A stretch of DNA of 34,441 nucleotides from Alphaproteobacteria bacterium (GTDB lineage Bacteria; Pseudomonadota; Alphaproteobacteria; GCA-2731375). Below, one piece after another: positions 6,481-31,185 of the stretch (position 1 is its first letter; the number at the start of each line of letters is the position of its first letter). The translations under genes and the position numbers were made by a program. The stretch is taken from contig JANQKO010000373.1 of assembly GCA_028281075.1 (NCBI GenBank), positions 1 to 34,441 of the forward strand, written 5' to 3'. Under the pieces are notes generated by a model. The model searched no databases. It was not told where the DNA came from and saw nothing but the letters and a program-made list of their open reading frames with translations.

Positions 6481-9303
6481 CTAACCGCCGGACAGGCTGT
6501 CCAGCAGCTTGCGCGCCTCGTCCATGCCGGCGAAGTTGGCGTCCGCCGTCAAGATGCGTTCGAGGATCTCTTTCGCCTGATCGCGCTTGCCGGTCTTCTC
6601 CAACGCGGCGGCGTAGTGATACTGGATCTCGGCATTGTTGGGCACCATCCCGGCGGCCTCGCGCAACAGCGTCAGGGCCCGCTCGGCCTGGCCGTCACGC
6701 AGCAGGATCCAGCCCAGCGTGTCCATGATCGCCGGCGATCCCGGCGCGCCCGCATTGGCCTTCTCGGCATATTCCAGGCCGCGCGGATCGCCTTTCCTGC
6801 TGTACAGCCAGGCCAGGTTGTTCAGCACGATATTGTTGTCGGGCTGACGCTCCAGCAGCGTCTCGTGCTGGGTGACGGCCTCGTCGGATTCGCCGTTCGC
6901 CAGCAGGTCGGTGGCCAGCGCGAAGCGGATGGCATCGTCTTCCGGGTTGTCGGCCAGCCAGTCGCGCAGTTCCTGAAAGCCTACCTCGCGCTGCCCCATA
7001 TCGACCCGGGCCCGATAGCGGCGGGCGACGATACGGCTGTTGGCCTCAATCGCGAGGCCGGCATTGTAGGCCGCGATCGCCTCTTCGTAGGCGCCCTGGT
7101 CGGCCCGGACATCGCCGAGCGCCAGGTCCGCGACCGGCGACTCCGGCATCGCCGTCCGCAACCGCCCGATGATGTCGACCGCGCGGTCATGGTTGTCCTG
7201 ATTGACCTCGAGGGTGACCAGGTTGAGATAGGCCGGCACGTAGCGCGGCGCCAGCTCGATCGCCCGTTCCAGGGTTTCGCGGGCGTCGCTGATGTTCTCC
7301 ACCGACACCAGAACCTGCGCCAGCCGCTGCCGCGCCACCGGTGAATTGGGCGCCAGCGAGACGACGCGGCGGAACGCCGTCACGGCGCTGGCGGTCTGGC
7401 CGGCGGCGAACTGCGCCCGGCCCAGGGCATCGACGGCCAGCGGATTGTCCGCCATCTCCTGCACCATGGCCCGGGCGACCGTCAGCGCCGCCGACGGGTC
7501 ATTGGCCGAGAGATGATAGTCGACCAGACGCAGGCGCGGCTGCACGGACCGCGGCTGCGCCTTGATGGCCTTGTCCAGCCAGCCGATGCCGTCCTCGGCC
7601 TTCTGCTGCTGGAACGCCAGGCGGCTCAACGCCATCATGGCGGCGACGTTCTTGTCGCTAATCGTCAGGACCTGCTCGTAACGGGCCGTGGCCGCGTCGA
7701 TCTTGCCTTCCGCCAGATCGATCTGGGCCAGGTTCAGATGCGCCGGCACGAAACCGGAATCGACGCCGAGCGCCGCAGTGAAGTGGTTCCGGGCGGCCGC
7801 CAGATCACCACGACGCAGACCGATGCCGCCCAGCAGGTTGTCCGGCAGCGGGCTCTCGGTCATCGATGTCTTCAACTCGGTGGCCGCGGCTTCGGCATCC
7901 CCGAGCTGGTTTTCGCGCAGATGGGTCAACACCAGCAGGATACCGGCCTGCGTCGCGTCCGGATCGCCCTCCAGGATCTGTTCCAGCTCGGCCACGGCCT
8001 CGTCCGACTGGCCGGTCTGCAGCCGGCTGAGCGCCAGTTGCGTCGCCAGCCTTGCGTTGTCGGGCTGCACGGCGACGATGCGCTCGAGCAGCTCGGCCGC
8101 CTCGACCGGATTGCGGTCGCGCAGATAGGCGTTGGCCAGCAGCGACAGGAGCTGCAGGTCCTCGCTGCCCCGGTCCGCGACCGGCTTCAGCAGCTCGATG
8201 GCCTTGTCGGACGTGCCCTTGCGGAGATAGACGCTGGCCAGCAGCTTCCGCACCGCCAGATTGTCGGGCACCAGCCCCATGGCCGTGCGCAGATACTGTT
8301 CGGCCTGCTCAAGCTGGTTCTCGCGCGTGTTCAGATAGGCCATCAGCAACAGGCCGGCCGGATAGTTGCGCAGGAACTCGCCGGACCGCTGCAAGGTATT
8401 GATGGCTTCCTGGTTCTGCCCCTCGCGCGCCTGCCGGACGGCGACCAAGTAGTTGGCCACCGGATGCTTGGGCTGCCGGGCCAGGACCTTGTCGATATTG
8501 ACGCCGGCGTCGGCATCCTGGCCCTGGCCCACCAGAATGGCGGCACGGCCGAGATTGGCGGCCAAGCTGTCGGCATTGACGGCGAGCGCGCGATTGAACT
8601 GTTCCAACGCGCCGTCGGCATCGCCGGCGCGGCGGCGAAGCTGGCCCTTGAGGTTGATGGCCTCGATGGACTCGGCGTTCGCCGCCAGCACCTCGTCGAC
8701 GGCCGCCTCGGCCTTCTCGAGCTGGCCCATCTGCTGATACAGCAGCGCCAGGCCGTAGGTGGCCAGGGTGTCGCCCGGCGTCAGCTCCAGGGCCTTGCGG
8801 AACGCTTCCTCGGACGGCTCGAACTCACGCTTGCCGCGAAAGGCATGGCCGCGATAGCTGAGGATCCGTGACTCGATCTCGGCGCCGCGGTCGCCGCTGG
8901 CGATGTCGTTCAGAATTTCCTCGAACTTGCCCTGGTGATAATAGGCCCGCGCCAGCATGGGCGCCAGCTCGGGCGCGGTGGCGCCGCGCGACAGCGCCGC
9001 CCGCAGTTCCTTCTCCGCTTCCGCGTACTGGCGCGTCTGCAGGTAGGCCTTGCCCAGCATCAGGCGTGCATTGGCGTCGTCCGGATCGTCGCGGACGGCA
9101 TTCTTCAACTGAATGATGGCGGCGGCGATGTCGCCACCCTCGGCATAGGACTTGGCCTCGGCGATATAGGATTCGCTGCCGCGGTCCGTCAGCCGCTGAA
9201 AGACGAACGGCGCCGCGGCCGCGACCGCCACGATCAGCACCAGCAGCGCGATAAATCCCTTGCTTCTGAAGAAGCCGCCGGATGATTTCTTGCGCTTGGC
9301 CAT
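6481..9303 (-). CDS. prsT: XrtA/PEP-CTERM system TPR-repeat protein PrsT
   Basis: 940 aa; N-terminal TM anchor (GFIALLVLIVAVAAAAPFVFQ) followed by tandem TPR repeats; directly downstream of prsK-prsR. Confidence 0.9.
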   Translation of the reverse strand: MAKRKKSSGGFFRSKGFIALLVLIVAVAAAAPFVFQRLTDRGSESYIAEAKSYAEGGDIAAAIIQLKNAVRDDPDDANARLMLGKAYLQTRQYAEAEKELRAALSRGATAPELAPMLARAYYHQGKFEEILNDIASGDRGAEIESRILSYRGHAFRGKREFEPSEEAFRKALELTPGDTLATYGLALLYQQMGQLEKAEAAVDEVLAANAESIEAINLKGQLRRRAGDADGALEQFNRALAVNADSLAANLGRAAILVGQGQDADAGVNIDKVLARQPKHPVANYLVAVRQAREGQNQEAINTLQRSGEFLRNYPAGLLLMAYLNTRENQLEQAEQYLRTAMGLVPDNLAVRKLLASVYLRKGTSDKAIELLKPVADRGSEDLQLLSLLANAYLRDRNPVEAAELLERIVAVQPDNARLATQLALSRLQTGQSDEAVAELEQILEGDPDATQAGILLVLTHLRENQLGDAEAAATELKTSMTESPLPDNLLGGIGLRRGDLAAARNHFTAALGVDSGFVPAHLNLAQIDLAEGKIDAATARYEQVLTISDKNVAAMMALSRLAFQQQKAEDGIGWLDKAIKAQPRSVQPRLRLVDYHLSANDPSAALTVARAMVQEMADNPLAVDALGRAQFAAGQTASAVTAFRRVVSLAPNSPVARQRLAQVLVSVENISDARETLERAIELAPRYVPAYLNLVTLEVNQDNHDRAVDIIGRLRTAMPESPVADLALGDVRADQGAYEEAIAAYNAGLAIEANSRIVARRYRARVDMGQREVGFQELRDWLADNPEDDAIRFALATDLLANGESDEAVTQHETLLERQPDNNIVLNNLAWLYSRKGDPRGLEYAEKANAGAPGSPAIMDTLGWILLRDGQAERALTLLREAAGMVPNNAEIQYHYAAALEKTGKRDQAKEILERILTADANFAGMDEARKLLDSLSGG

Positions 9304-9364
9304 AGTCTCAGTCTCTCAAACCATTGATGTGGATGCGGCGGTCCAGCCCGCGGCCGGCTACCGG

Positions 9365-10738
9365 CTAATCGTCCTCAGTGCGCATCCCCAGGTTGCGCAT
9401 CAGGTCATAAAGGGTCGGCCGGCTGACGCCCAGCATTTTCGCCGTCTTGGAGATGTTGCCGTCGGTGGCGATCAGCACTTCCTCGACAAGCTGGCGCTCG
9501 GCATATTCGCGCGCCTCCTTCAGGGTGTGCGGGCGGTTGTCGCTGGCGTTGCGGATCAGGTTCTCGAGATCGAGGTCTTCGGCCGTCACCGTCTTGCCCT
9601 CGGCCATGATGATGGCCTTCTTCACGTTGTTCTCGAGCTGGCGGACGTTGCCCGGCCAGGAATAGCGCGAGATGGCCTGGATGGCGTCGTCGGAGAACCC
9701 GCGCAGGGACTTGCTGTACTGGGTGTTGAAACGCTCGAGGAAGAACTTCGCCAGCAGCACGCTGTCGCCGCGCCGCGACCGCAGCGGCGGGATCTCGACA
9801 CTGATTTCCTTCAGGCGGTAATAGAGGTCTTCCCGGAAGGTGCCTTCCTCGATCATCGCGTCCAGGTTCTGATTGGTGGCGCAGACGATCCGCACATCCA
9901 CCGGGATCGACTTGCGGCCGCCGAGGCGCTCGATCTTGCGGTCCTGCAGGAACCGGAGCAGCTTGGCCTGCAGGCTGGCCGGCAGATCGCCGATCTCGTC
10001 GAGAAACAACGTGCCGCCATCGGCCAGCTCGATCTTGCCGATGGTCTGCCTGGCGGCGCCGGTGAAGGCCCCCTTCTCGAAGCCGAAGAGCTCGCTCTCC
10101 AGCAGGTTTTCGGGAATCGCCGCGCAGTTGATGGCCACGAAGCCGTTGCCGGCGCGCTGGCTGGCGAAGTGGAGCGCGCTCGACAGCAGCTCCTTGCCGG
10201 TGCCGCTTTCGCCGGTAATGAGCAGCGTGACGTCGGTCGGCGCGATCTTTTCGACGGTGCGGCAGACCGCCATCATCTCGCTGTCGGCGGTGATGATGCC
10301 GCCGAAGGGCGCGCTCTCGCCGACCCGCATCAGCTTGCGGTTCTCGGCCTCCAGCTTGTAGACGTGCCAGGCCCGCTCGATGATCAGCCGCAGCATGTCG
10401 ATGTCGACGGGCTTGGCGCAGAAATCATAAGCGCCCAGGCTGATCGCGCGCACGGCGTTGGCGCGCTCCTCGTTGCCGCTGGCGACGATGACCTTGGTTT
10501 CCGGCCGCATCGACAGCAGGGCGTCGAGCGTCGCCAGCCCCTCGGTCGCGCCGTTGGTGTCGGGCGGCAGGCCGAGGTCGAGCACGACCACCGCCGGGCC
10601 ATGCCGCTCCATCGCGTCGACCGCCGATTCCCGGTCGCTGGTCAGGTGCACGTTGTGCTCCGACATGGCCCAGCGGAGCTGGCTCTGCAATCCGGGATCG
10701 TCCTCGACGATCAGAAGCTCAAGCTGGTCTGCCGCCAT
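9365..10738 (-). CDS. prsR: PEP-CTERM-box response regulator transcription factor PrsR (sigma-54-dependent, NtrC family)
   Basis: Receiver (LLIVEDDPGLQ...VVVLDLGLPPD), AAA+ (GESGTGKELLSSALH), sigma-54 contact motif FEKGAFTGA, C-terminal Fis-like HTH (NISKTAKMLGVSRPTLYDLMRNLGM). Start at ATG 10736-10738. Confidence 0.93.
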   Translation of the reverse strand: MAADQLELLIVEDDPGLQSQLRWAMSEHNVHLTSDRESAVDAMERHGPAVVVLDLGLPPDTNGATEGLATLDALLSMRPETKVIVASGNEERANAVRAISLGAYDFCAKPVDIDMLRLIIERAWHVYKLEAENRKLMRVGESAPFGGIITADSEMMAVCRTVEKIAPTDVTLLITGESGTGKELLSSALHFASQRAGNGFVAINCAAIPENLLESELFGFEKGAFTGAARQTIGKIELADGGTLFLDEIGDLPASLQAKLLRFLQDRKIERLGGRKSIPVDVRIVCATNQNLDAMIEEGTFREDLYYRLKEISVEIPPLRSRRGDSVLLAKFFLERFNTQYSKSLRGFSDDAIQAISRYSWPGNVRQLENNVKKAIIMAEGKTVTAEDLDLENLIRNASDNRPHTLKEAREYAERQLVEEVLIATDGNISKTAKMLGVSRPTLYDLMRNLGMRTEDD

Positions 10739-10739
10739 C

Positions 10740-12851
10740 TCAGCCTCGCCGTCCCGCCCGGGCCGTGGCCGGCGCGGCAAGCTCGCCCAGCCGCGGCAGC
10801 AGGACCTTGACCGTGGTCCCGGCGCCCGGCACGCTGATCACATCCAGCCGGCCGCCCATATCGCGGACCAGCTCGCGGGTCTGGTAGGCGCCGAGGCCCG
10901 AGCCCGTGCGCTTGGTCGTGTGCAGCGGGCGGAACAGCTCGTCGCGGATGAACTCGGCCTCCATGCCGGGGCCGTTGTCGGTGACCGAGAGCACGGCAAA
11001 GTCGCCCTCGACGTCGAGCGACAGCGTGATCAGCCCGTCGGCCTCCACCGCCTCGACGGCATTCTGCAGCAGATGGCCGATGACCGCGGACAACCGCGCC
11101 TCGTCGCCCATCGCCTCGATATGCTCGTCGCCGATCTTCAGCGCCACCGGCGGCACGGCGTTCAACCAGGGCCGCGCCACGTCGCGAAGCACCGGCGCCA
11201 GGGCCAGCGGCCGCACGGTCGCGGCATCGGCGCGCTCGTCCAGCTTCAACTGTCCCAGCAGCCCGCCCATCTTCTGGACGGCGTTGCGGACCGTGCGCAT
11301 GGCGTCCCGCTGGAATTCCGGATTGTCGCCGTGACGCTCGGAATTCGACAGCACCAGGGAGAGCTGGCTGGCGATGTTCTTGATGTCGTGGATGACGAAG
11401 GCAAACCGCCGGTTGAACTGCTGCAAGTGCTGGGCGTCGACCAGCGCCCGCAGCGCCGCCTCCTCGGCCAGATAGCTCGCAACCTGCTGTCCCATGGTCT
11501 TCAACAGATCGAAGTCCTCCCAATCGAGGCGGCGCGACGCCCTGGGCCGGCCGAGCACGAGAAAACCTTCCAGGCGCTGACGGCGCCGCAGCGGCAAGAC
11601 CAGCCACGCCTTGGACAATTCCTGCAACCAGCGCGGCAATCGCAGGTCCTTATATAGATCGGGACGGTTGGCGTATTCATTAAGATCGATGATCCGATTG
11701 TCCTGCTCGAGGAAGGCGATGAACGGCGTGTCGGCGCCGACGAACGGCAGCTTGCCGCCGAAGTTCCAGCGGGCGGCCGGCACATAGGCCTCGTCGTCCA
11801 CGCCCCGGACCCAGATCGCGCCGGACGGACTGTCGACGACGTCGGCCATGGCGCGGATGGCCCTGTCATGCAGGTTGCCGATGCCGTCCGAAGTGGTCTC
11901 CAGGAAACGCAGCCATTCGAGCCGGTAGTCGTAGCTGTACGAGAAGAAGTTCTTGGCGATGAACAGCCGGATCCGCGCCCGCACGGCCTCGGAAAACAGC
12001 GCCAGCAGCATGAACACGACGGCGGCGGACAGAAAGGCGGTCTGGAACAGCACGCCCCAGGCGCCGCCCCGGGTGCGCAGGTAATAGCCGACCAGCGCCA
12101 TGGCCACGAGGTAGGCGCCGCTGCCGATGATCGCGGCGGTGTGGAACACGGCGCCCCGGGACACGTGGATCTCGACCGACCATTCGCGGTTCCGGCTGGC
12201 GGCGACGGCGATCAGCGGCACGGCCAGGGCGTTGACGAGGCCGCGGCTGTCGAAGAGCTTGTCGTCGAAGCGGTTCAGCAGCAGGGCGTCGGAGTAGATG
12301 AAGAAGTCGTAAACGAAGATCAGGCCGGCGCCGATGACCAGGAACTTCTGCGCCCAGAGCGAATCCGCCGAGGCGCCACGGAAAATATTCTCAACACAGA
12401 CCAGGCCGAGCACGGCGAGCGAGAGGTAGCCGACGATGCGCAGCGTCTGCAGCGACTGGCCGAGCGCGCTGTCGGCGACCAGCCCGATGCGCGGGTCGAT
12501 CAGCACCTCGATGAGCGCCAGGCCGCCGACCAGCACCACGAGCAGGGCGACGACGCAGCGCCGCCGCCAGCTCGGCGCCAACCAGGTCGCCGTCGGCACG
12601 ATCAGGCCGCCGAGAAACAGCAGCCAGCAGGCCGTCCGGGCGATCTCGGCCAGCTCGACCGCCAGCGGGAACCGGTAGGGCGCCAGGCCGTGATAGACGA
12701 CCAGCGCCGCCCAGAGGGTGGTCACGCCGCAAGTAAGAAGCAGCAGCCGCCCGAGCGTGGTCGAGCCGCGCGCATGCAGCAGCAGCAGCGTCAGCACCAG
12801 ATAGGCGAACACCGATGCCGAATGGCTCGCGACCGTTGCGCTCATGGCCAT
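10740..12851 (-). CDS. prsK: XrtA/PEP-CTERM system sensor histidine kinase PrsK
   Basis: N-terminal multi-TM region, GAF-like middle, HisKA/HATPase C-terminus (FAFVIHDIKNIASQLSLVLSN...LLQNAVEAV...VTDNGPGM...GSGLGAYQTRELV); adjacent to prsR. Confidence 0.92.
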   Translation of the reverse strand: MAMSATVASHSASVFAYLVLTLLLLHARGSTTLGRLLLLTCGVTTLWAALVVYHGLAPYRFPLAVELAEIARTACWLLFLGGLIVPTATWLAPSWRRRCVVALLVVLVGGLALIEVLIDPRIGLVADSALGQSLQTLRIVGYLSLAVLGLVCVENIFRGASADSLWAQKFLVIGAGLIFVYDFFIYSDALLLNRFDDKLFDSRGLVNALAVPLIAVAASRNREWSVEIHVSRGAVFHTAAIIGSGAYLVAMALVGYYLRTRGGAWGVLFQTAFLSAAVVFMLLALFSEAVRARIRLFIAKNFFSYSYDYRLEWLRFLETTSDGIGNLHDRAIRAMADVVDSPSGAIWVRGVDDEAYVPAARWNFGGKLPFVGADTPFIAFLEQDNRIIDLNEYANRPDLYKDLRLPRWLQELSKAWLVLPLRRRQRLEGFLVLGRPRASRRLDWEDFDLLKTMGQQVASYLAEEAALRALVDAQHLQQFNRRFAFVIHDIKNIASQLSLVLSNSERHGDNPEFQRDAMRTVRNAVQKMGGLLGQLKLDERADAATVRPLALAPVLRDVARPWLNAVPPVALKIGDEHIEAMGDEARLSAVIGHLLQNAVEAVEADGLITLSLDVEGDFAVLSVTDNGPGMEAEFIRDELFRPLHTTKRTGSGLGAYQTRELVRDMGGRLDVISVPGAGTTVKVLLPRLGELAAPATARAGRRG

Positions 12852-12866
12852 GTCCCCAGGCTCATC

Positions 12867-14288
12867 TCAGCGCACGCCGGAGGGCCACAGGATGACCCGG
12901 ACCGTCTGCAGCAGAATAATAACATCCAGGAACAGGCTGGCATTCTTCACATAATACAGGTCGTAGGAGAGCTTTTCCTTCGCATCTTCGATGGAGGCCC
13001 CATAGGGATAGTTGATCTGCGCCCAGCCGGTGATGCCCGGCTTTACCCGATGGCGCTCGCCGTAATAGGAGATCGCCTCGCTGAGCGTGTCGACGAAGAA
13101 GGGCCGTTCGGGCCGCGGTCCGATGATGCTCATCTCGCCGCGCAGCACGTTGATGATCTGCGGCAGCTCGTCGATCCGGGTCTGGCGGATGAACGCCCCG
13201 ACCTCGGTGATCCGGTCGTCCTTCTCGGCCGCCCAGCGCGGCCCGCCGACCTGCTCGGCGTCGACGCGCATGCTGCGGAACTTGGTCAGCGTGAACGTCC
13301 GGCCGTCGCGGCCCACCCGCTCCTGCCGATAGAAGACGGGACCGGGGCTGTCGAGCTTGATCAGCAGCGCCGCCACCGCCGTGATCGGCAGGGTGAAGAT
13401 CAGCAGCAGCAGGCTGACGACCACATCGAAGGTGCGTTTGGCGGCATCGCGGAACAGGCTCTTGTCGAAGCCGTCGGAGAAGATCAGCCAATTGGGATCG
13501 AGCTCGTCGAGCATGACCCGGCCGAGCTCGCGCTCGACGAAGCTGAGATAGCCGGTGACGCGGATGCCCTGCAGCTTGCAGTTCAGAAGCGCGTGGACCG
13601 GCAGGGTCTGCGCGTCGTCCTCGGCGATGACGATCTCGTCGACATCGTGGGCCTCGACCAGCGTCAACAGGTCGTTGAGATCGGCGTTCAGGACCGGTAC
13701 CGGCAGGTCGGCCCGGGTCTCCGGCACCGTTTCCGTCAGATCGACCAGACCGACGACCTCGAACCCCTCGGCCTGGTCGCCGAGGATGCTCTGACGCAAC
13801 TGCGAGGCCCGGTCGAGACGGCCGATGACGATGATCCGCTGATGGAACATGCCGAGGTCGGCGATCATGATGAAAAGTATGCGCGTGCATAGAATCGCGA
13901 CGATGGCGAGCGCTATTCCGGCCGGCAAATAAAAATAATGACGCGGTGGGTATTTCTCGACAGGATATACGTAAAAATAAAATTTTATCAGCAGATAACT
14001 GGCAATCGCCACCATCACCAGGCCGATAAACATCCTGATGATCATTATCTGAACATTTGAGATTATGTTGCGATTATATAATCCCAGCGAGAAAAATACC
14101 GTGGCGCAGAAAATCGCCACGAAGGTCGAGAAGTAGGAAAAGCTGAACCGGCCGGCTTCCTGCGCGCTGGTCTGCGTCGACAGCAGAATGTGCGCGACGG
14201 CGAACAGCATCAGCCCCTCGATCAGCCCCAGCAGCAGGGAAGCGCGGGAGATATAGTGTCCAAAGATCCGCACGCGGGGATAGATCAC
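12867..14288 (-). CDS. XrtA/PEP-CTERM-type polyisoprenyl-phosphate sugar transferase (initiating bacterial sugar transferase)
   Basis: Multi-TM N-terminus plus C-terminal WcaJ/WbaP-type domain (KRTFDVVVSLLLLIFTLPI...SPGPVFYRQERVGRDGRTFTLTKFRSMRVDAE...RIDELPQIINVLRGEMSIIGPRPERPFFV...GITGWAQINYPYG). Start uncertain: GTG near 14288 chosen; the ORF is open to 14396. Confidence 0.9.
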   Translation of the reverse strand: MIYPRVRIFGHYISRASLLLGLIEGLMLFAVAHILLSTQTSAQEAGRFSFSYFSTFVAIFCATVFFSLGLYNRNIISNVQIMIIRMFIGLVMVAIASYLLIKFYFYVYPVEKYPPRHYFYLPAGIALAIVAILCTRILFIMIADLGMFHQRIIVIGRLDRASQLRQSILGDQAEGFEVVGLVDLTETVPETRADLPVPVLNADLNDLLTLVEAHDVDEIVIAEDDAQTLPVHALLNCKLQGIRVTGYLSFVERELGRVMLDELDPNWLIFSDGFDKSLFRDAAKRTFDVVVSLLLLIFTLPITAVAALLIKLDSPGPVFYRQERVGRDGRTFTLTKFRSMRVDAEQVGGPRWAAEKDDRITEVGAFIRQTRIDELPQIINVLRGEMSIIGPRPERPFFVDTLSEAISYYGERHRVKPGITGWAQINYPYGASIEDAKEKLSYDLYYVKNASLFLDVIILLQTVRVILWPSGVR

Positions 14289-14432: not shown

Positions 14433-15467
14433 CTATTGTCCGGACGCCATTCTTTGCCGCGTGAACAGCCACACACAAAACAACACAATAAGTACGACGT
14501 AGGTCATCGGTGCCGTCACGATATCGGTCAGGATTGAGACGAAAAAGCCGATCAGGCTGCGATGCTGACGCGGCTCGACCTCCGCTTCCTTCTGCCGCGC
14601 CGTCATGTCCCGGGCGCGTTCGCCGCCCGCGTATGCCCGCCCCAGGGATGACGAGCGGCCGAGCGGCCCGCCCAGCAGGTTGGAGCCGGTCTGCCCGACC
14701 TGCAGGCCCGGCACCAAGAATGGACCACTCAAGGCGTCGGGAAAGTGACCAAGGTCAACAAGCGCGCTTTTTTTTTGCTCGATCGGCACTCTGACCCGCA
14801 CGACCTGAATCGCGCCGTCATCGTCCAATACCAGGTCATCACCGACGAACAGATCATAGAACGACCCGACCAGGTTCAGGCCGACCTTGCCCATGAACTC
14901 AGGCTCTTCGCCGATCCCGCCGGCATCCGTGAAATGCGCCGCCAGCCAGCCGACGACCGCCGTCTCGTAGCCCGGAACGCCGGCCGCGCCGGCGGGCTTC
15001 TTTGCCGCCGCCGGCCCCACCGGGACGAAAACGAACTCCAGCTCGGTCGCCAGCAGCCTCGCGTCCAAGGCCTTGCGCCGGGCCCTGGGATCGGTGCCGC
15101 CACCGGGCGCCGCCAACTGTCCCGGCGCGACGGCGGGCCCGATCGGCACCAGGCCCGCGCGAAAGGATTCCAGCCATTGGCGGTGGCGCACCAGCCAGCG
15201 CTGATACGCCAGCGACGAGGCCCGATCGCCATTCTTGCGAAACGCCTGGTTATCCAGTTCGGGCAGGAACGGATACATCGGTCCCGCCGGCTCCCTGACC
15301 TGCCAGTCGGCGCCCAGGTCCGGCGCGGCCTCGGTCATGGCCGGAATATCCGTCGCCTTGTCCGGACGCGGCTTGACCGGCATGGCCTGCACCGACCACG
15401 ACGCCGCGGTACCCAACTGCAGGATAACCATGACGAGAAGCAGTAATGCGACGCGGCTTCGCATCAA
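14433..15467 (-). CDS. Uncharacterised exported protein with signal peptide and C-terminal transmembrane helix, in XrtA locus
   Basis: 344 aa; MMRSRVALLLLVMVILQLGTAASWSVQA N-terminal signal; C-terminal APMTYVVLIVLFCVWLFTRQRMASGQ; no family recognised; co-directional with the sugar transferase-prsKRT block. Confidence 0.75.
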   Translation of the reverse strand: MMRSRVALLLLVMVILQLGTAASWSVQAMPVKPRPDKATDIPAMTEAAPDLGADWQVREPAGPMYPFLPELDNQAFRKNGDRASSLAYQRWLVRHRQWLESFRAGLVPIGPAVAPGQLAAPGGGTDPRARRKALDARLLATELEFVFVPVGPAAAKKPAGAAGVPGYETAVVGWLAAHFTDAGGIGEEPEFMGKVGLNLVGSFYDLFVGDDLVLDDDGAIQVVRVRVPIEQKKSALVDLGHFPDALSGPFLVPGLQVGQTGSNLLGGPLGRSSSLGRAYAGGERARDMTARQKEAEVEPRQHRSLIGFFVSILTDIVTAPMTYVVLIVLFCVWLFTRQRMASGQ

Positions 15468-15636
15468 TTGTCTCTGTTGTTAGGTCTTAATGGCAAAGAC
15501 ATCTCCGACATTCACGCCCATGAATGGCGTTAACCCTAAACAGCAATACGGTGATCGGGGGCGTTGACTGGTGGCAGAAAACCGCTGGCTCGTTCACAAC
15601 GTGACTGGTTGTTGGCGCTTCTGCGACGGGCCGAGT

Positions 15637-15642
15637 ATAGAC
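15637..15642 (-). promoter_or_regulatory. Possible -10 element (TATACT) upstream of the 14433-15467 / sugar transferase / prsKRT block
   Basis: Minus-strand GGTCTATACTCGG in a 301-bp intergenic region; no convincing -35. Confidence 0.2.
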
Positions 15643-15768
15643 CAATCACCTGCGCTTTGCTCGATTTTGAACGCCGGCGGAGAAGCGGGCGTCTCCGGCC
15701 GTTCGCCGACACGCCTACGGATCGAACGCTCAACCTATGGTAAACCGGCGGCGCGCGGTGACCAAGCG

Positions 15769-17715
15769 CTATCCGACCGACGCCGCGCGGGTCGCGTCGA
15801 CGGGTGCCGGCGCGTCGACGCCATGCACCTGCCGCAGGAACGATTCAAACATCAATACGCTCCACAGCGCGGCGCTGTGGTCGCGGCGGCCGGCGATGTG
15901 CTGGTCCGCCAGCGACGACAGCACATCCATGTCGAAGATGCCGGTCTCCCGCAACGCCGGGCTGGCGGTGGCGGCGCGCAGCCGTTGGCGCAGCGGGCCG
16001 CGGAACCATTTCGCCAATGGCACCGAGAAGCCCATCTTCGGCCGGTAAAGAATGTCGGCGCTGACATAGGGCTCCAACGCCCGCTTGAACAGGTATTTCC
16101 CGCTCCGCCCGTTCAGCTTCAGCGCCGGCGGCAACGTCGCGGTCCACTCGACGAACGCGTGGTCGAGAAGCGGCGCCCGCGTTTCCAGCGAGTTCGCCAT
16201 GCTGGCCCGATCGACCTTGACCAGGATGCCGCCGGCGAGCCAGGTGCCGACATCGGCATGCTGCGCCTGCAGCAGGGGAATGTCGGAATCGGCCGACCGA
16301 AACGCCGCTTCCAGCAGCTCGACGGCGTGATAGCCGCCGAGCTCGCGCTTGAAGCCATCGCTGTAGAGGTCCGCGCGCATCTGATCGTTAAGCTTGGAGA
16401 CGCTGGCGAAGTACCCGGCGACCGTATCGAGCGCCAGTTCCTGGAAGGTCGATTTCGCCCGCAGCCGGCGCGGCGCCCAGTCGAGCTTGGGATAGGCCCG
16501 GCCGAGCAGGCCGAACAGCGCCCGCCGCGGCCCGGCGGGCATCGCCCGGCGCACCCGCTCCTCGGCCACATGCCAGGGATAGCGCCGATAGCCGGCCAGA
16601 AACTCGTCGCCCCCGTCGCCCGACAGCGCCACCGTCACCCGTTCGCGGGCGATGGCGCTGACGCGATAGGTCGGGATCGCGGAACTGTCGCCGAACGGCT
16701 CGTCATAGATCGTGGCCAGCCGATCGACGAGGTCGAACTCGTCGGCGTCGACCTGACGGACGAAATGGCGCGTGCCGTAGCGCTCGGCATGGGCCGCGGC
16801 ATAGGCCGACTCGTCGAACGCGCGCTGCTTGAACGAGATGGAAAAGGTATTGACCGGATCCGGCGACAGGCCGGACATCAGCGCGACGACGGCGCTGGAG
16901 TCAACGCCGCCGGAGAGGAACGCCCCGATCGGGACGTCGGATATCCGGCGGATGTCGACGGCTTCGCGCAGACGGTCGATCAGCTCGGCGCCCAGCGCCG
17001 CCTCGTCGCCTCCGGCCGCGGCGTCGAAGCGCACCCGCCAATAGGTCCTGGGCGCGGGCAGGCCGGCGCCGGTGCCGCGCCGCAGGCAGAGCGTGCTCGC
17101 CGGCGGCAGCTTGTGGACGCCGCGATAGATCACCTTGGGGTCGGGCACGTAGCCGTAGGCGAAATAGTCCTCGACGGCGCTGGCGTCGATCTCGCGCGGC
17201 AGGTTCGCGTGCACGAGCAGCGACTTCAGCTCGGACCCGAACGCGAACAGGCCGTCGGGCAGCAGGGTATAGTAGAGCGGCTTCTTGCCGAGACGGTCGC
17301 GGGCCAGGAACAGGGCCTGCGCCCTCTCGTCCCAGAGGGCGAAGGCGAACATGCCCCGCAGCCGCTCGACGCAGGCCTCGCCCCACTCCTCCCAGGCATG
17401 CACGATGGTCTCGGTGTCCGATCGCGTGCTGAACCGATGCCCGCGCGCCTCCAGCTCGGCCATCAGGGCCGGGAAGTTGTAGATCTCGCCGTTGAAGACG
17501 ACGGCGACGCTGCCGTCCTCGTTGTAGATCGGCTGGTCGCCGCTGACCAGGTCGATGATCGCCAACCGCCGGTGCCCGAGGCCGATGCCGGGGGCAAGGT
17601 GGTAGCCGTCGCCGTCGGGACCGCGGTGGGCGATGCTGTCGGTCATCCGCCGCAGCAGCGCGTGATCGATCCGGGATCGGTCGCGGGTGTCGAAAATTCC
17701 GCTTATGCCGCACAT
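15769..17715 (-). CDS. XrtA/PEP-CTERM system amidotransferase (class II glutamine-hydrolysing asparagine synthase family)
   Basis: MCGISGIFDTRDRSRID... catalytic Cys2; GEIYNFPALMAELEARGHRFSTRSDTETIVHAWEEWG; SGGVDSSAVVALMSGL synthase PP-loop. Confidence 0.93.
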   Translation of the reverse strand: MCGISGIFDTRDRSRIDHALLRRMTDSIAHRGPDGDGYHLAPGIGLGHRRLAIIDLVSGDQPIYNEDGSVAVVFNGEIYNFPALMAELEARGHRFSTRSDTETIVHAWEEWGEACVERLRGMFAFALWDERAQALFLARDRLGKKPLYYTLLPDGLFAFGSELKSLLVHANLPREIDASAVEDYFAYGYVPDPKVIYRGVHKLPPASTLCLRRGTGAGLPAPRTYWRVRFDAAAGGDEAALGAELIDRLREAVDIRRISDVPIGAFLSGGVDSSAVVALMSGLSPDPVNTFSISFKQRAFDESAYAAAHAERYGTRHFVRQVDADEFDLVDRLATIYDEPFGDSSAIPTYRVSAIARERVTVALSGDGGDEFLAGYRRYPWHVAEERVRRAMPAGPRRALFGLLGRAYPKLDWAPRRLRAKSTFQELALDTVAGYFASVSKLNDQMRADLYSDGFKRELGGYHAVELLEAAFRSADSDIPLLQAQHADVGTWLAGGILVKVDRASMANSLETRAPLLDHAFVEWTATLPPALKLNGRSGKYLFKRALEPYVSADILYRPKMGFSVPLAKWFRGPLRQRLRAATASPALRETGIFDMDVLSSLADQHIAGRRDHSAALWSVLMFESFLRQVHGVDAPAPVDATRAASVG

Positions 17716-17761: not shown

Positions 17762-19330
17762 TCAGTCGAAGCGCGCCGCCGCGCGCAGGACCGGCGTCAG
17801 CGGCCCGATCCCCCGCAACAGCGCGTCCATCGCGGCCAGCGCGTCGGCCTCGTCGACCTCGTACTCGGCCGAGACGGCGACGACGGCGGCCGGCCGCCGG
17901 CCCGACAGCAGCTCGGCCCGTGCCTGCAGCAACTTCGCCTCCAGTCCGCTCGCCGTGAAGGTATCATCGATCCAGTAGCGCGAGACGACAAGGCGTTTGC
18001 GCCGGTGCGACAGGACCTGGGTCAGGATCACCTGCTGCCGCTCGCCGGCCAGCTCGACCTGCGCGCGCCGATGGCCGGCGCGTTTCCAGGTGTCATCGTC
18101 GTAGAACCGGTTGTCGTGCGAGATGACCTCGGCATTGACGCGCTGGCGCCCGTAGAACGCCACGAACAGATCGACCTCGCCGGCGCCGCCGCGATAGACC
18201 TGATGCATGATGGCATCGGCGCCGGGAAAGCGCGGCCGCCAGTCGCCGGCCGCGCCGGCCGCGCGCCAGTCGCCGCCGGCCGCCGGCGGGGTCAGCACCG
18301 CGAGGTCGATGGCCGGTTCCAGCGACCGGATGTAGCCGGCATAGGCCGGCGCGACGGAAATGGCGGCGGCGATCAGCACGGCGGTGGTCACCGCGCCGAA
18401 ACGTCCGATGCCGCCCCCCGCCGCCGGCGGCGCCGCGCCGACATCGTCGTCGCCGGGGCCGTCCTCGCGGAACTGCATGCCGATGACGATCAGCAGCACG
18501 ATGACCAGCGAGAAGAACAGCCAGCCATAGACCAGATGATCGACGCCGACCGCGAGCTGATGGTCGCTGAGATGCGCGATCATGATCAGGCCGAAAGCCC
18601 GGAAGCCATTGGCGATGATCGGCACGACCACCGACAGGACCACGAACGTCGCCCGGCGGCGGTTACTGCGGTAGGTCATGTTGGCGAACAGGAAACCGAA
18701 GGCGAGCGAGGCCACCAGGAAGCGCAGGCCGGCGCAGGCTTCCGCGACCACGAAATTGCCGCTGGGGATCGAGATGAAGATGCCGTCCTTGAACACCGGA
18801 ATGCCGATCAACTGCAGCGCCAGCACCGCGAACTCGGCGGTGAAGTCCTGCAGCGCCGGCACCATGAACTCACCGCTCGGCACCAGGAAGAAGAGATAGA
18901 GAAAGGGGAACAGCAGGGCCTTGTAGACCCGCCAGCCGAACATGCTGAACAACACGATCTGGATCATGCCGAGCAACACGAAATGCTGGGCTTCCTGAAT
19001 GCTGGCGACCTCGGCGACCATGCCGACGAGCCCCGCCGGCGGCAGCAGCAGCAGCGGCCAGAGCATCGGCCGCGGCCAGATCCGCGCGAACAGGGCGCGC
19101 CGCTCCCAGATCAGGTAGAGCGTGATCGGCAGGATCAGATAGCAGTGCGTGTAGGTCGGCGACGAGTTCCAGACCCGCACGGCGCTGACCACCTCGTCCG
19201 CGTGCAGGCCGAGCAGGAACAGCAGCACCACGAGCGTCGCCGCGCCGGCCTTCCACCAGGCCGCCCGCAGCGACGCGCCGGCGTCCGCCGCCGTCGGCGC
19301 CGCCGGATCGTTCACCGCCTTGATGCTCAA
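17762..19330 (-). CDS. xrtA: Exosortase A fused to EpsI domain
   Basis: Eight-TM-type N-terminal region with exosortase catalytic motifs (VVAEACAGLRFLVASLAFGFLFA; IIANGFRAFGLIMIAHLSDH) and a C-terminal EpsI-like domain (ALEAKLLQARAELLSGR...). Confidence 0.93.
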   Translation of the reverse strand: MSIKAVNDPAAPTAADAGASLRAAWWKAGAATLVVLLFLLGLHADEVVSAVRVWNSSPTYTHCYLILPITLYLIWERRALFARIWPRPMLWPLLLLPPAGLVGMVAEVASIQEAQHFVLLGMIQIVLFSMFGWRVYKALLFPFLYLFFLVPSGEFMVPALQDFTAEFAVLALQLIGIPVFKDGIFISIPSGNFVVAEACAGLRFLVASLAFGFLFANMTYRSNRRRATFVVLSVVVPIIANGFRAFGLIMIAHLSDHQLAVGVDHLVYGWLFFSLVIVLLIVIGMQFREDGPGDDDVGAAPPAAGGGIGRFGAVTTAVLIAAAISVAPAYAGYIRSLEPAIDLAVLTPPAAGGDWRAAGAAGDWRPRFPGADAIMHQVYRGGAGEVDLFVAFYGRQRVNAEVISHDNRFYDDDTWKRAGHRRAQVELAGERQQVILTQVLSHRRKRLVVSRYWIDDTFTASGLEAKLLQARAELLSGRRPAAVVAVSAEYEVDEADALAAMDALLRGIGPLTPVLRAAARFD

Positions 19331-28859: not shown

Positions 28860-29960
28860 TTGACTTCGAACAACGCGGCTCCGCCGCACGACGGCGCCGG
28901 CCCGGCTTTCGAGACGGACTATGCCGCCCTCTTCCGCCGGAGCGCCAGCCCGGACTATTACGCCCATCCCGACTGGTTCCGGAACCTCGCGGCAACCTGC
29001 CTCACCGCGTCCGAGAACGCCGTGCTGTTCACGGCGCGCGATGCCGATGGTGCCGCGGTCGCCGCCCTGCCGGCCAGGCGGCATGCGGCATCCGACATCT
29101 TCCCCGGCGCCCGCGCGATCGGCAGCCTGACCAACTTTTACGCCTGCAACTTCACGATCGCCGCCCGGCCGGACGCCGACCTGGCGGCCGCCTGTCGGCA
29201 GATCGTCGACGCCATGACGGCGGACGGCCACCGGCCCGATATCCTGCGCCTCGACACCCTGCCGCGCGAGGCGCCGGCCTTCGATGCCCTGGTCGCGACG
29301 ATCCGCGCGCGCGGCTGGCCGCTGCGGACCTATTTCCACTTCGGCAACTGGTTCGAGACCGTCGCCGGGCTCGGCTATGACGACTATCTCGCCCGCCGTC
29401 CGTCGCGCCTGCGCAACACCATCGCGCGCAAGCGGCGCCAGCTCGAAAAGACGCACGACGTGGACTTCGAGATCTGCCGCTCGCCGGCCGAGGTCGCGGC
29501 GGCCATGGCCGGCTACGAGACGATCTACGCGGAAAGCTGGAAGCCGGCCGAGCCGTTTCCCGCCTTCACGCCGGGACTGGCCCGGTCCGCGGCGGCGAAC
29601 GGCGCCCTGCGCCTGGGCATCTGCCGCCTCGACGGCGTGCCCGCGGCGGCCCAGATCTGGCTGACCTACGGGGGCCGCGCGACGATCTTCAAGCTGGCCG
29701 ACGCGGCCCGCCACCGCCGGCGCTCGCTCGGCACCGTGCTGACGGCGGAAATGATGCGGCACGCCCTGGAGGTCGATCAGGTGCGCGAGGTCGATTTCGG
29801 CCGCGGCGACGACGCCTATAAGCGCGACTGGCTGTCGCAGCGGCGCGAGCGCTGGGGCATCCTCGCCTGCAACCCCCGGAGCCTCAGGGGCCTGGCCGCG
29901 GCCGGGCGGCACCTGCTGCTGCCGGCGCTGAGGGACCGGCTGCGCCGCCGGCCGCGCTGA
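28860..29960 (+). CDS. Second FemAB/CelD-like GNAT family N-acyltransferase
   Basis: PDYYAHPDWFRNLAATC...GYDDYLARRPSRLRNTIARKRRQLEKTHDVDFEI...YAESWKPAEPFPAFTPGLAR...VDFGRGDDAYKRDWL (Acetyltransf_6-like pattern). TTG start codon at 28860 by the ORF track. Confidence 0.8.
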   Translation: MTSNNAAPPHDGAGPAFETDYAALFRRSASPDYYAHPDWFRNLAATCLTASENAVLFTARDADGAAVAALPARRHAASDIFPGARAIGSLTNFYACNFTIAARPDADLAAACRQIVDAMTADGHRPDILRLDTLPREAPAFDALVATIRARGWPLRTYFHFGNWFETVAGLGYDDYLARRPSRLRNTIARKRRQLEKTHDVDFEICRSPAEVAAAMAGYETIYAESWKPAEPFPAFTPGLARSAAANGALRLGICRLDGVPAAAQIWLTYGGRATIFKLADAARHRRRSLGTVLTAEMMRHALEVDQVREVDFGRGDDAYKRDWLSQRRERWGILACNPRSLRGLAAAGRHLLLPALRDRLRRRPR

Positions 29961-31185
29961 GCCGGTGGCGCGCCAGCGTCCGTTCGCAGATCTCCTCGAA
30001 GATACGCGCGACGCCGGGCGCGCTGAAATGCCGCTCGACATAGGACCGCGCGGTCGTCGCCAGCCGTTCGCTCAAGGCGGCGTCGGCCAGCAGGCGCAGG
30101 ACCTCGGCGGCAAAGCCGTCGGCCGTGTCGGCGCGCAGGTAATGTTGACCCTCGTCGAGCGGCAGTCCTTCGACCCCGATCGTGGTCGAGACCACCGGGC
30201 AGCCCATGGCCATGGCCTCGTAGACCTTGATGCGCGTGCCGCCGCCGACGCGCAGCGGAATGGCATAGACCTGCGCCGCGTGCACGTGGGGCCGGATATC
30301 GTCGACGAAGCCGGTAAAGGTCCAGGGCAGGCCGCGCCGGCGCGCCCGCTCGACCAGGTGCGCCGGCGGGTCGCGGCCGACGACGACGACGTTCGCCGCC
30401 GGCGCGGCCCGCGCCACCGTCGGCCAGATCGCGTCCATGAAGAACTCGATGCCATCGATGTTGGCGGCCCAGTTCATCGAGCCGGTGAAGACGATGGTGC
30501 CGCCCCCGGGCGGTCCCGGCGGCGGTGCCCGAAAGCCGAAGAAATCGAGATCGACGGCCGTCGGAATCGCCTCGACGACCGGGCTGCCATAGGCCTGCCG
30601 GAAATGCTCGGCATCACGCTCCGACACGGCGATCACGGTATCGAACCGCCGCAGCGCCGCCCGCTCGAACCGGACCATCTTGCGCCACTGGTCCCGCCAC
30701 ACCGCGCGGCTGACCGAATTGCCGGCCACGTCCACGTGCCGGGCGAAGATCTCGGCTTCGACGTTATGCGTGAACAGCAGCGACGCGGGCGCGAGGTCCT
30801 CGGGCGTCAGCACCGCCGCGTGCGCGAAGTCGGTGACGACCAGATCGCAGCCGCGCGCCAGCTCGGCCCGGACCGCCGCCAAACCGGCGGCCGAGCGGTC
30901 GCAGGCCACGGCGACCGGCAGCGACGACAGCAGATACGACAGCCGGCGCAGGCCGAACCACCTGCCCTGGCGGCGAAACGGCCAGTCGACGAAGCGGTCG
31001 CAGACCGCGGCGAGCTCGTCGGCATGGCGTTCCGGCTGCCCCGGCCGGGCCGGCGACAGCAGCGTGATCTCGAAGCTGCCGCCCTTCAGGCCGCGCAGGA
31101 CGTTGGTGGTGCGGATCTTGCCGCCGGCGTCGGTGGGAAACAGGAATTGCGGCGAAATGAACAGCAGCCGCGGGCGTGCCGTCAC
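29884..31185 (-). CDS. GT4-like glycosyltransferase (PEP-CTERM/EPS-associated type)
   Basis: LLFISPQFLFPTDAGGKIRTTNVLRGLKGG...GGTRIKVYEAMAMGCPVVSTTIGVEGLPL. Confidence 0.88.
   Translation of the reverse strand: MTARPRLLFISPQFLFPTDAGGKIRTTNVLRGLKGGSFEITLLSPARPGQPERHADELAAVCDRFVDWPFRRQGRWFGLRRLSYLLSSLPVAVACDRSAAGLAAVRAELARGCDLVVTDFAHAAVLTPEDLAPASLLFTHNVEAEIFARHVDVAGNSVSRAVWRDQWRKMVRFERAALRRFDTVIAVSERDAEHFRQAYGSPVVEAIPTAVDLDFFGFRAPPPGPPGGGTIVFTGSMNWAANIDGIEFFMDAIWPTVARAAPAANVVVVGRDPPAHLVERARRRGLPWTFTGFVDDIRPHVHAAQVYAIPLRVGGGTRIKVYEAMAMGCPVVSTTIGVEGLPLDEGQHYLRADTADGFAAEVLRLLADAALSERLATTARSYVERHFSAPGVARIFEEICERTLARHRLSAAGGAAGPSAPAAAGAARPRPGP

Follow-up and report, generated by a model that had tools for sequence, protein, structure and literature searches.

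PEP-CTERM proteins, the substrates of exosortases, carry a near-invariant PEP motif, and upstream of most of their genes in Proteobacteria lies a sequence that contains a sigma-54 motif (Haft et al. 2006, PMC1569441). Several components of XrtA (exosortase A) loci have been described, including PrsT, PrsK, PrsR, TIGR03013, TIGR03016, TIGR03108 and FemAB. Here we describe a protein encoded in such a locus that matches none of these components.

The XrtA locus

The window, a stretch of 34,441 nucleotides from an alphaproteobacterial genome, carries an exopolysaccharide (EPS) locus of the XrtA type. In the stretch that runs from prsT through the export gene (6481-28630), every gene except one matched an XrtA-system model above cut-off. 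The exception is located on the minus strand at 14433-15467, and its product is named X. The above-cut-off set comprised PrsT, PrsR, PrsK, TIGR03013, TIGR03108, exosortase A, TIGR03087, FemAB, an ATPase, a deacetylase, the TIGR03016 outer-membrane protein, a tyrosine kinase, and chain-length and export proteins. The described components recur in many XrtA loci, whereas proteins resembling X turned up in no more than three genomes. The features around X are as follows.

6481-12851, minus strand: prsT, prsR and prsK, model matches above cut-off
12867-14273, minus strand: sugar transferase of the XrtA system (TIGR03013), downstream neighbour of X, likely start GTG 14273
14436-15464, minus strand: coding sequence of X, 343 amino acids, ATG start (stop codon 14433-14435; in-frame TTG one codon upstream)
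14436-14561, minus strand: C-terminal anchor of X, with an amphipathic stretch, Pro, TM helix, Trp and basic tail (P-x12-W-x3-R-x-R)
15381-15464, minus strand: predicted signal peptide, in the region of residues 1-28 of X (from sequence and hydropathy)
15465-15768, minus strand: gap upstream of X, 304 bp, to the amidotransferase stop, with one weak sigma-70-like match
15769-17715, minus strand: TIGR03108 XrtA-system amidotransferase, next gene upstream of X, model match above cut-off
17762-19330, minus strand: exosortase A (xrtA) with an EpsI-type C-terminal domain, model match above cut-off

An earlier note had regarded X as the sole gene of the locus outside the XrtA families. This proved too strict, because two further genes also lie outside them: a GNAT acetyltransferase gene at 28860-29960, which matches a general family only (PF13480), and a glycosyltransferase gene at 29884-31185, which scores under the XrtA cut-off. 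The GNAT gene is on the plus strand in an otherwise minus-strand EPS locus and overlaps the end of the glycosyltransferase gene. The window yielded no tRNA, and there was no Rfam element close to X.

XrtA-locus genes are sporadic in the genomes surveyed. PrsK scored above cut-off in one of the 15 genomes of the family to which the window genome (G000) belongs, and the amidotransferase did so in 2 of the 27 genomes of one other order (that of G388) and in 1 of the 26 of another (that of G418). This distribution suggests horizontal spread or repeated loss.

Architecture of X

The open reading frame of X was confirmed, as was its organization into an N-terminal signal, a Gly/Pro/Ala-rich region and, at the C-terminus, a TM helix with basic residues after it; the tail quoted in the earlier note, VVLIVLFCVWLFTRQRM, is exact. 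The length of 344 residues given there becomes 343, since the listed start codon is TTG and the ATG at 15464 is the next codon inside. Kyte-Doolittle peaks were restricted to residues 1-28 and 302-342. The N-terminus, MRSRVALLLLVMVILQLGTAASWSVQA, is followed by MPV after a likely cut between VQA and MPV, and as read from the sequence it has the form of a type I signal peptide, made up of MRSR, VALLLLVMVILQLG and TAASWSVQA ahead of MPV. The basic cluster after the TM helix is weak (R-Q-R). GC contents at the three codon positions were 70, 48 and 80%, which is coding-like and similar to the neighbour genes. Because of the signal peptide, the hydrophobic ends and this neighbour-like codon-position GC, X is very probably the product of a genuine gene.

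No catalytic motif was evident in X, and no confident fold was obtained. The AlphaFold check proposed in the earlier note was run and yielded only a low-confidence model: without an alignment, pLDDT was 43 in the case of X and 38 in that of the C-terminal part of one of the proteins compared below (L106). Residues 304-341 were predicted as a helix in the model of X too.

Searches for relatives of X

Searches with X gave no match in Pfam (E up to 10) or NCBIfam (E up to 1) and no credible match in PDB, bearing out the proposal that X stands outside described families. The best PDB hit was a weak resemblance of residues about 130-178 to subunit A of succinyl-CoA:3-ketoacid CoA-transferase (E 0.037), which was rejected as a recurring chance similarity. 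Weak genome matches over the same residues, perhaps to the same CoA-transferase family, were likewise rejected as chance.

No credible relative of X was present in 40 related genomes, and 385 genomes of the class gave nothing convincing (best E 7e-4, chance-level); thus neither set contained a convincing homologue in a genome lacking XrtA. A scan of about 85,000 species genomes, which detects close relatives only, returned chance patterns only, and plasmids and phages gave no match. Within the family of the window genome, X was seen only in the one genome of 15 with an above-cut-off PrsK, although such cases are few.

The amidotransferase-transferase slot in other loci

XrtA loci of the class were found via the amidotransferase (30 genomes with a match, the regions being read for most of them), and 80 PrsK loci were sampled from named genomes. 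Among the loci examined, the gap between the amidotransferase and the transferase or prsK varied in content. It was empty in L074 (G346). L079, L085 and L093 had a glycosyltransferase together with a small TM protein there, whereas L081 had a 124-aa protein and L097 a polytopic one. In L077 and L106, from two other Alphaproteobacteria, the gap was occupied by a signal-peptide/C-anchored protein without PEP.

L106 slot protein (MAG Dino_bin58), ORF 6858-7847, minus strand: 329 aa
L077 slot protein (G388:C20), ORF 14482-15405, plus strand: 307 aa

These two proteins, both from one order, are homologous to each other (E 6e-8) and gave no match in family searches. Genes of this type occurred in 2 of the 27 genomes of that order, exactly those with an above-cut-off XrtA amidotransferase, though the cases are few. 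Most other signal-peptide/C-anchored proteins near these blocks were PEP-CTERM proteins, and beyond X, L106 and L077 no PEP-less C-anchored protein was found in the slot among the loci examined. The neighbourhood survey suggested in the earlier note thus uncovered similar proteins in the same slot of two other XrtA loci. No such slot protein was present in L104 (Oceanibacterium), the nearest XrtA locus by tree distance, and a search of the order of Oceanibacterium gave no further XrtA amidotransferase. A profile of the L106 and L077 proteins run over the 385 class genomes recovered its own source and noise only, and a three-sequence profile run over 36 further genomes, nearly all picked for XrtA-locus genes, returned nothing credible.

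Other features were observed around these slots. In L106, a tRNA-Val gene (8043-8117, plus strand) lies in the gap that separates the slot protein from the sugar transferase and is a possible integration point. Just downstream of the L106 slot protein, the segment 6529-6804 (minus strand) contains a perfect sigma-54 site, TTGGCACGGATCTTGCA, at 6746-6762 (minus strand). The site is directed towards a putative hydrophobic peptide of 33 aa, MEISRRFIKTLLFLAVVAALGSIYVGAALALAA. Small proteins with a single TM segment, 64-80 aa long, are encoded at L079:3948-4142, L085:4050-4292 and L098:3894-4103 (all minus strand); they adjoin the amidotransferase in the opposite direction and have a similar hydrophobic segment at the C-terminus.

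Relationship of X to the L106 and L077 slot proteins

Protein X occupies the same gap between the TIGR03108 amidotransferase and the TIGR03013 transferase as the L106 and L077 proteins. All three have a signal peptide, a variable middle, no PEP motif and no family match, and all three end in the tail P-x12-W-x3-[RK]-x-R, a motif that was defined after seeing all three. Elsewhere in the 10,556 ORFs of these loci, the tail spacing occurred only in ORFs that were short or of low complexity and had no TM helix at the C-terminus. Alignment of the last 193 residues of X with L106 gave z 3.75 (p = 0.008), compared with at most z 1.37 against 23 PEP-CTERM proteins. The alignment of X with L077 was not significant (p = 0.08), the two-sequence profile of L106 and L077 did not rank X above shuffled X, and hhalign of X against L106/L077 gave a probability of 2%.

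At 0.56 substitutions per site, the L106 and L077 slot proteins retain 6% of the self-score, while their neighbour genes retain 52-78%. Extrapolation to the window-L106 distance of 1.34, by homology-detection-failure reasoning (PMC7660931) applied with a single decay point, leads to an expectation of about 1 bit. Therefore, the lack of BLAST similarity between X and the L106/L077 proteins is expected at the distance of the window. Taken together, common descent of X and the two slot proteins is likelier than not, short of proof. It is conceivable, if unlikely, that the three represent a family not described before, which evolves very fast, consists of tail-anchored periplasmic proteins without PEP, and accompanies some of the alphaproteobacterial XrtA loci. 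In this reading, its members would be specific partners of XrtA or the EPS polymerisation complex and might, for instance, act as an adaptor or regulator of the exosortase.

The main rival to the reading of X as an accessory protein treats X as an unrelated orphan, either arisen de novo or imported from outside the sampled genomes, which happens to sit in a slot of variable content; it would have a convergent likeness to L106/L077 and no particular XrtA role. The changing content of the slot in L074, L079, L085, L093, L081 and L097, the failed profile tests, and the lack of sequence relatives in the genomes, plasmids and phages searched would all fit such an origin, as would the strand of X, which is co-directional with the block whereas the L106 and L077 genes run opposite to the transferase. 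However, architecture, tail spacing and slot are the same in three loci, the alignment with L106 gave p = 0.008, and PEP-less C-anchored proteins are otherwise absent from this slot in the loci examined. We consider this explanation possible but somewhat doubtful.

Upstream region and transcription

The intergenic region upstream of X reported earlier is present, its length being 304 bp rather than 301 bp. A scan for the sigma-54 half of a sigma-54/PrsR-type site found none upstream of X, and the single sigma-70-like match abuts the start codon, with 0.2 such matches expected by chance in the scanned stretch. Promoter support for X as the opening gene of a transferase-prsK-prsR-prsT transcript is therefore thin. 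Downstream, X is separated from the transferase by about 160 bp, given the transferase start at GTG 14273, which aligns with homologues that begin MVRIF. Because the slot counterparts in L106 and L077 face the other way, co-transcription with the block is not an essential feature. Elsewhere in the genome of X, two canonical PEP-CTERM-type genes (L237 and L239, on G000 contigs C12 and C651) have sigma-54-like sites, TGGCACAATTTTTGCG and TGGCGTGACAATTGCA, that lie close to the start of the ORF or upstream of it, consistent with control of these genes by PrsR.

Comparison with PEP-CTERM proteins

Like PEP-CTERM proteins (TIGR02595), X is encoded near an XrtA locus and has a signal peptide, judged by hydropathy and sequence, a variable passenger, and a TM helix near the C-terminus that leads into a basic end. 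Unlike them, it has no Pro-Glu-Pro before the C-terminal helix, its tail reading TDIVTAPMTYVV; at the PEP position, X has TAPM, L106 has LNPL and L077 has LHPF. It also has no TIGR02595 or Pfam match, and no sigma-54 site upstream. By these sequence features, X is not a PEP-CTERM protein. Nine above-cut-off PEP-CTERM matches elsewhere in the genome indicate that ordinary candidate substrates are available.

It might be argued that X serves as an atypical substrate whose recognition site has degenerated, with the XrtA encoded next door cutting X and then releasing or attaching it. Its plan, with a Pro before the TM helix, and its fast passenger evolution recall PEP-CTERM proteins, whose genes often lie beside these blocks. 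Nevertheless, such a role is improbable in view of the absence of a PEP motif from all three slot proteins, the lack of a model match, the nine ordinary matches already in the same genome, and the absence of a sigma-54 site where some canonical PEP-CTERM genes of that genome have one. Finally, the lack of a homologue, confinement to a single genome, a weak ribosome-binding site and overlapping antisense ORFs could point to a spurious ORF, but this is scarcely credible for 343 codons with a textbook signal peptide, a C-terminal anchor and coding-like codon-position GC, none of which the antisense ORF has.

Proposed role of X

We tentatively favour the reading of X as an accessory protein of the XrtA/PEP-CTERM exopolysaccharide locus that evolves fast, faces the periplasm and is anchored in the inner membrane; this reading may quite possibly be correct. 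X would be exported by Sec and its signal peptide removed, after which the C-terminal helix would keep it in the inner membrane. The Gly/Pro/Ala-rich body would then be periplasmic and the short basic end cytoplasmic, as the positive-inside rule, a cleaved signal peptide and a helix ending in R-Q-R together predict. Since there is no PEP motif, no cutting by XrtA is expected, and X would remain a neighbour of XrtA, PrsK and the transferase in the inner membrane. There, it may be a resident protein that serves the membrane-bound EPS/exosortase machinery as scaffold or partner, making contact through the tail helix. We infer this topology, the lack of processing and the partnership with the EPS machinery from the features described above; a scaffold, adaptor or regulator would be the simplest reading of the role.

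The earlier note had proposed a lineage-specific accessory subunit of the XrtA EPS machinery. The lack of a described family, the lack of a convincing homologue without XrtA in the genomes searched, the similar proteins in two XrtA loci and their match with the genomes of the order that have an above-cut-off amidotransferase agree with this proposal, while a subunit role in EPS synthesis is what we infer beyond them. X is very probably the product of a real gene of the XrtA locus, undescribed and lineage-restricted, and the proposal made for it in the earlier note is plausible, with support for part of it.

The case of X illustrates that a fast-evolving gene can pass for an orphan though counterparts may occupy the same slot elsewhere. 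Little is known of the functions of exosortase-A loci beyond PEP-CTERM sorting. A membrane-anchored protein with the plan of a substrate but no PEP would offer a handle on recognition by XrtA and on the coupling of sorting to polysaccharide export.
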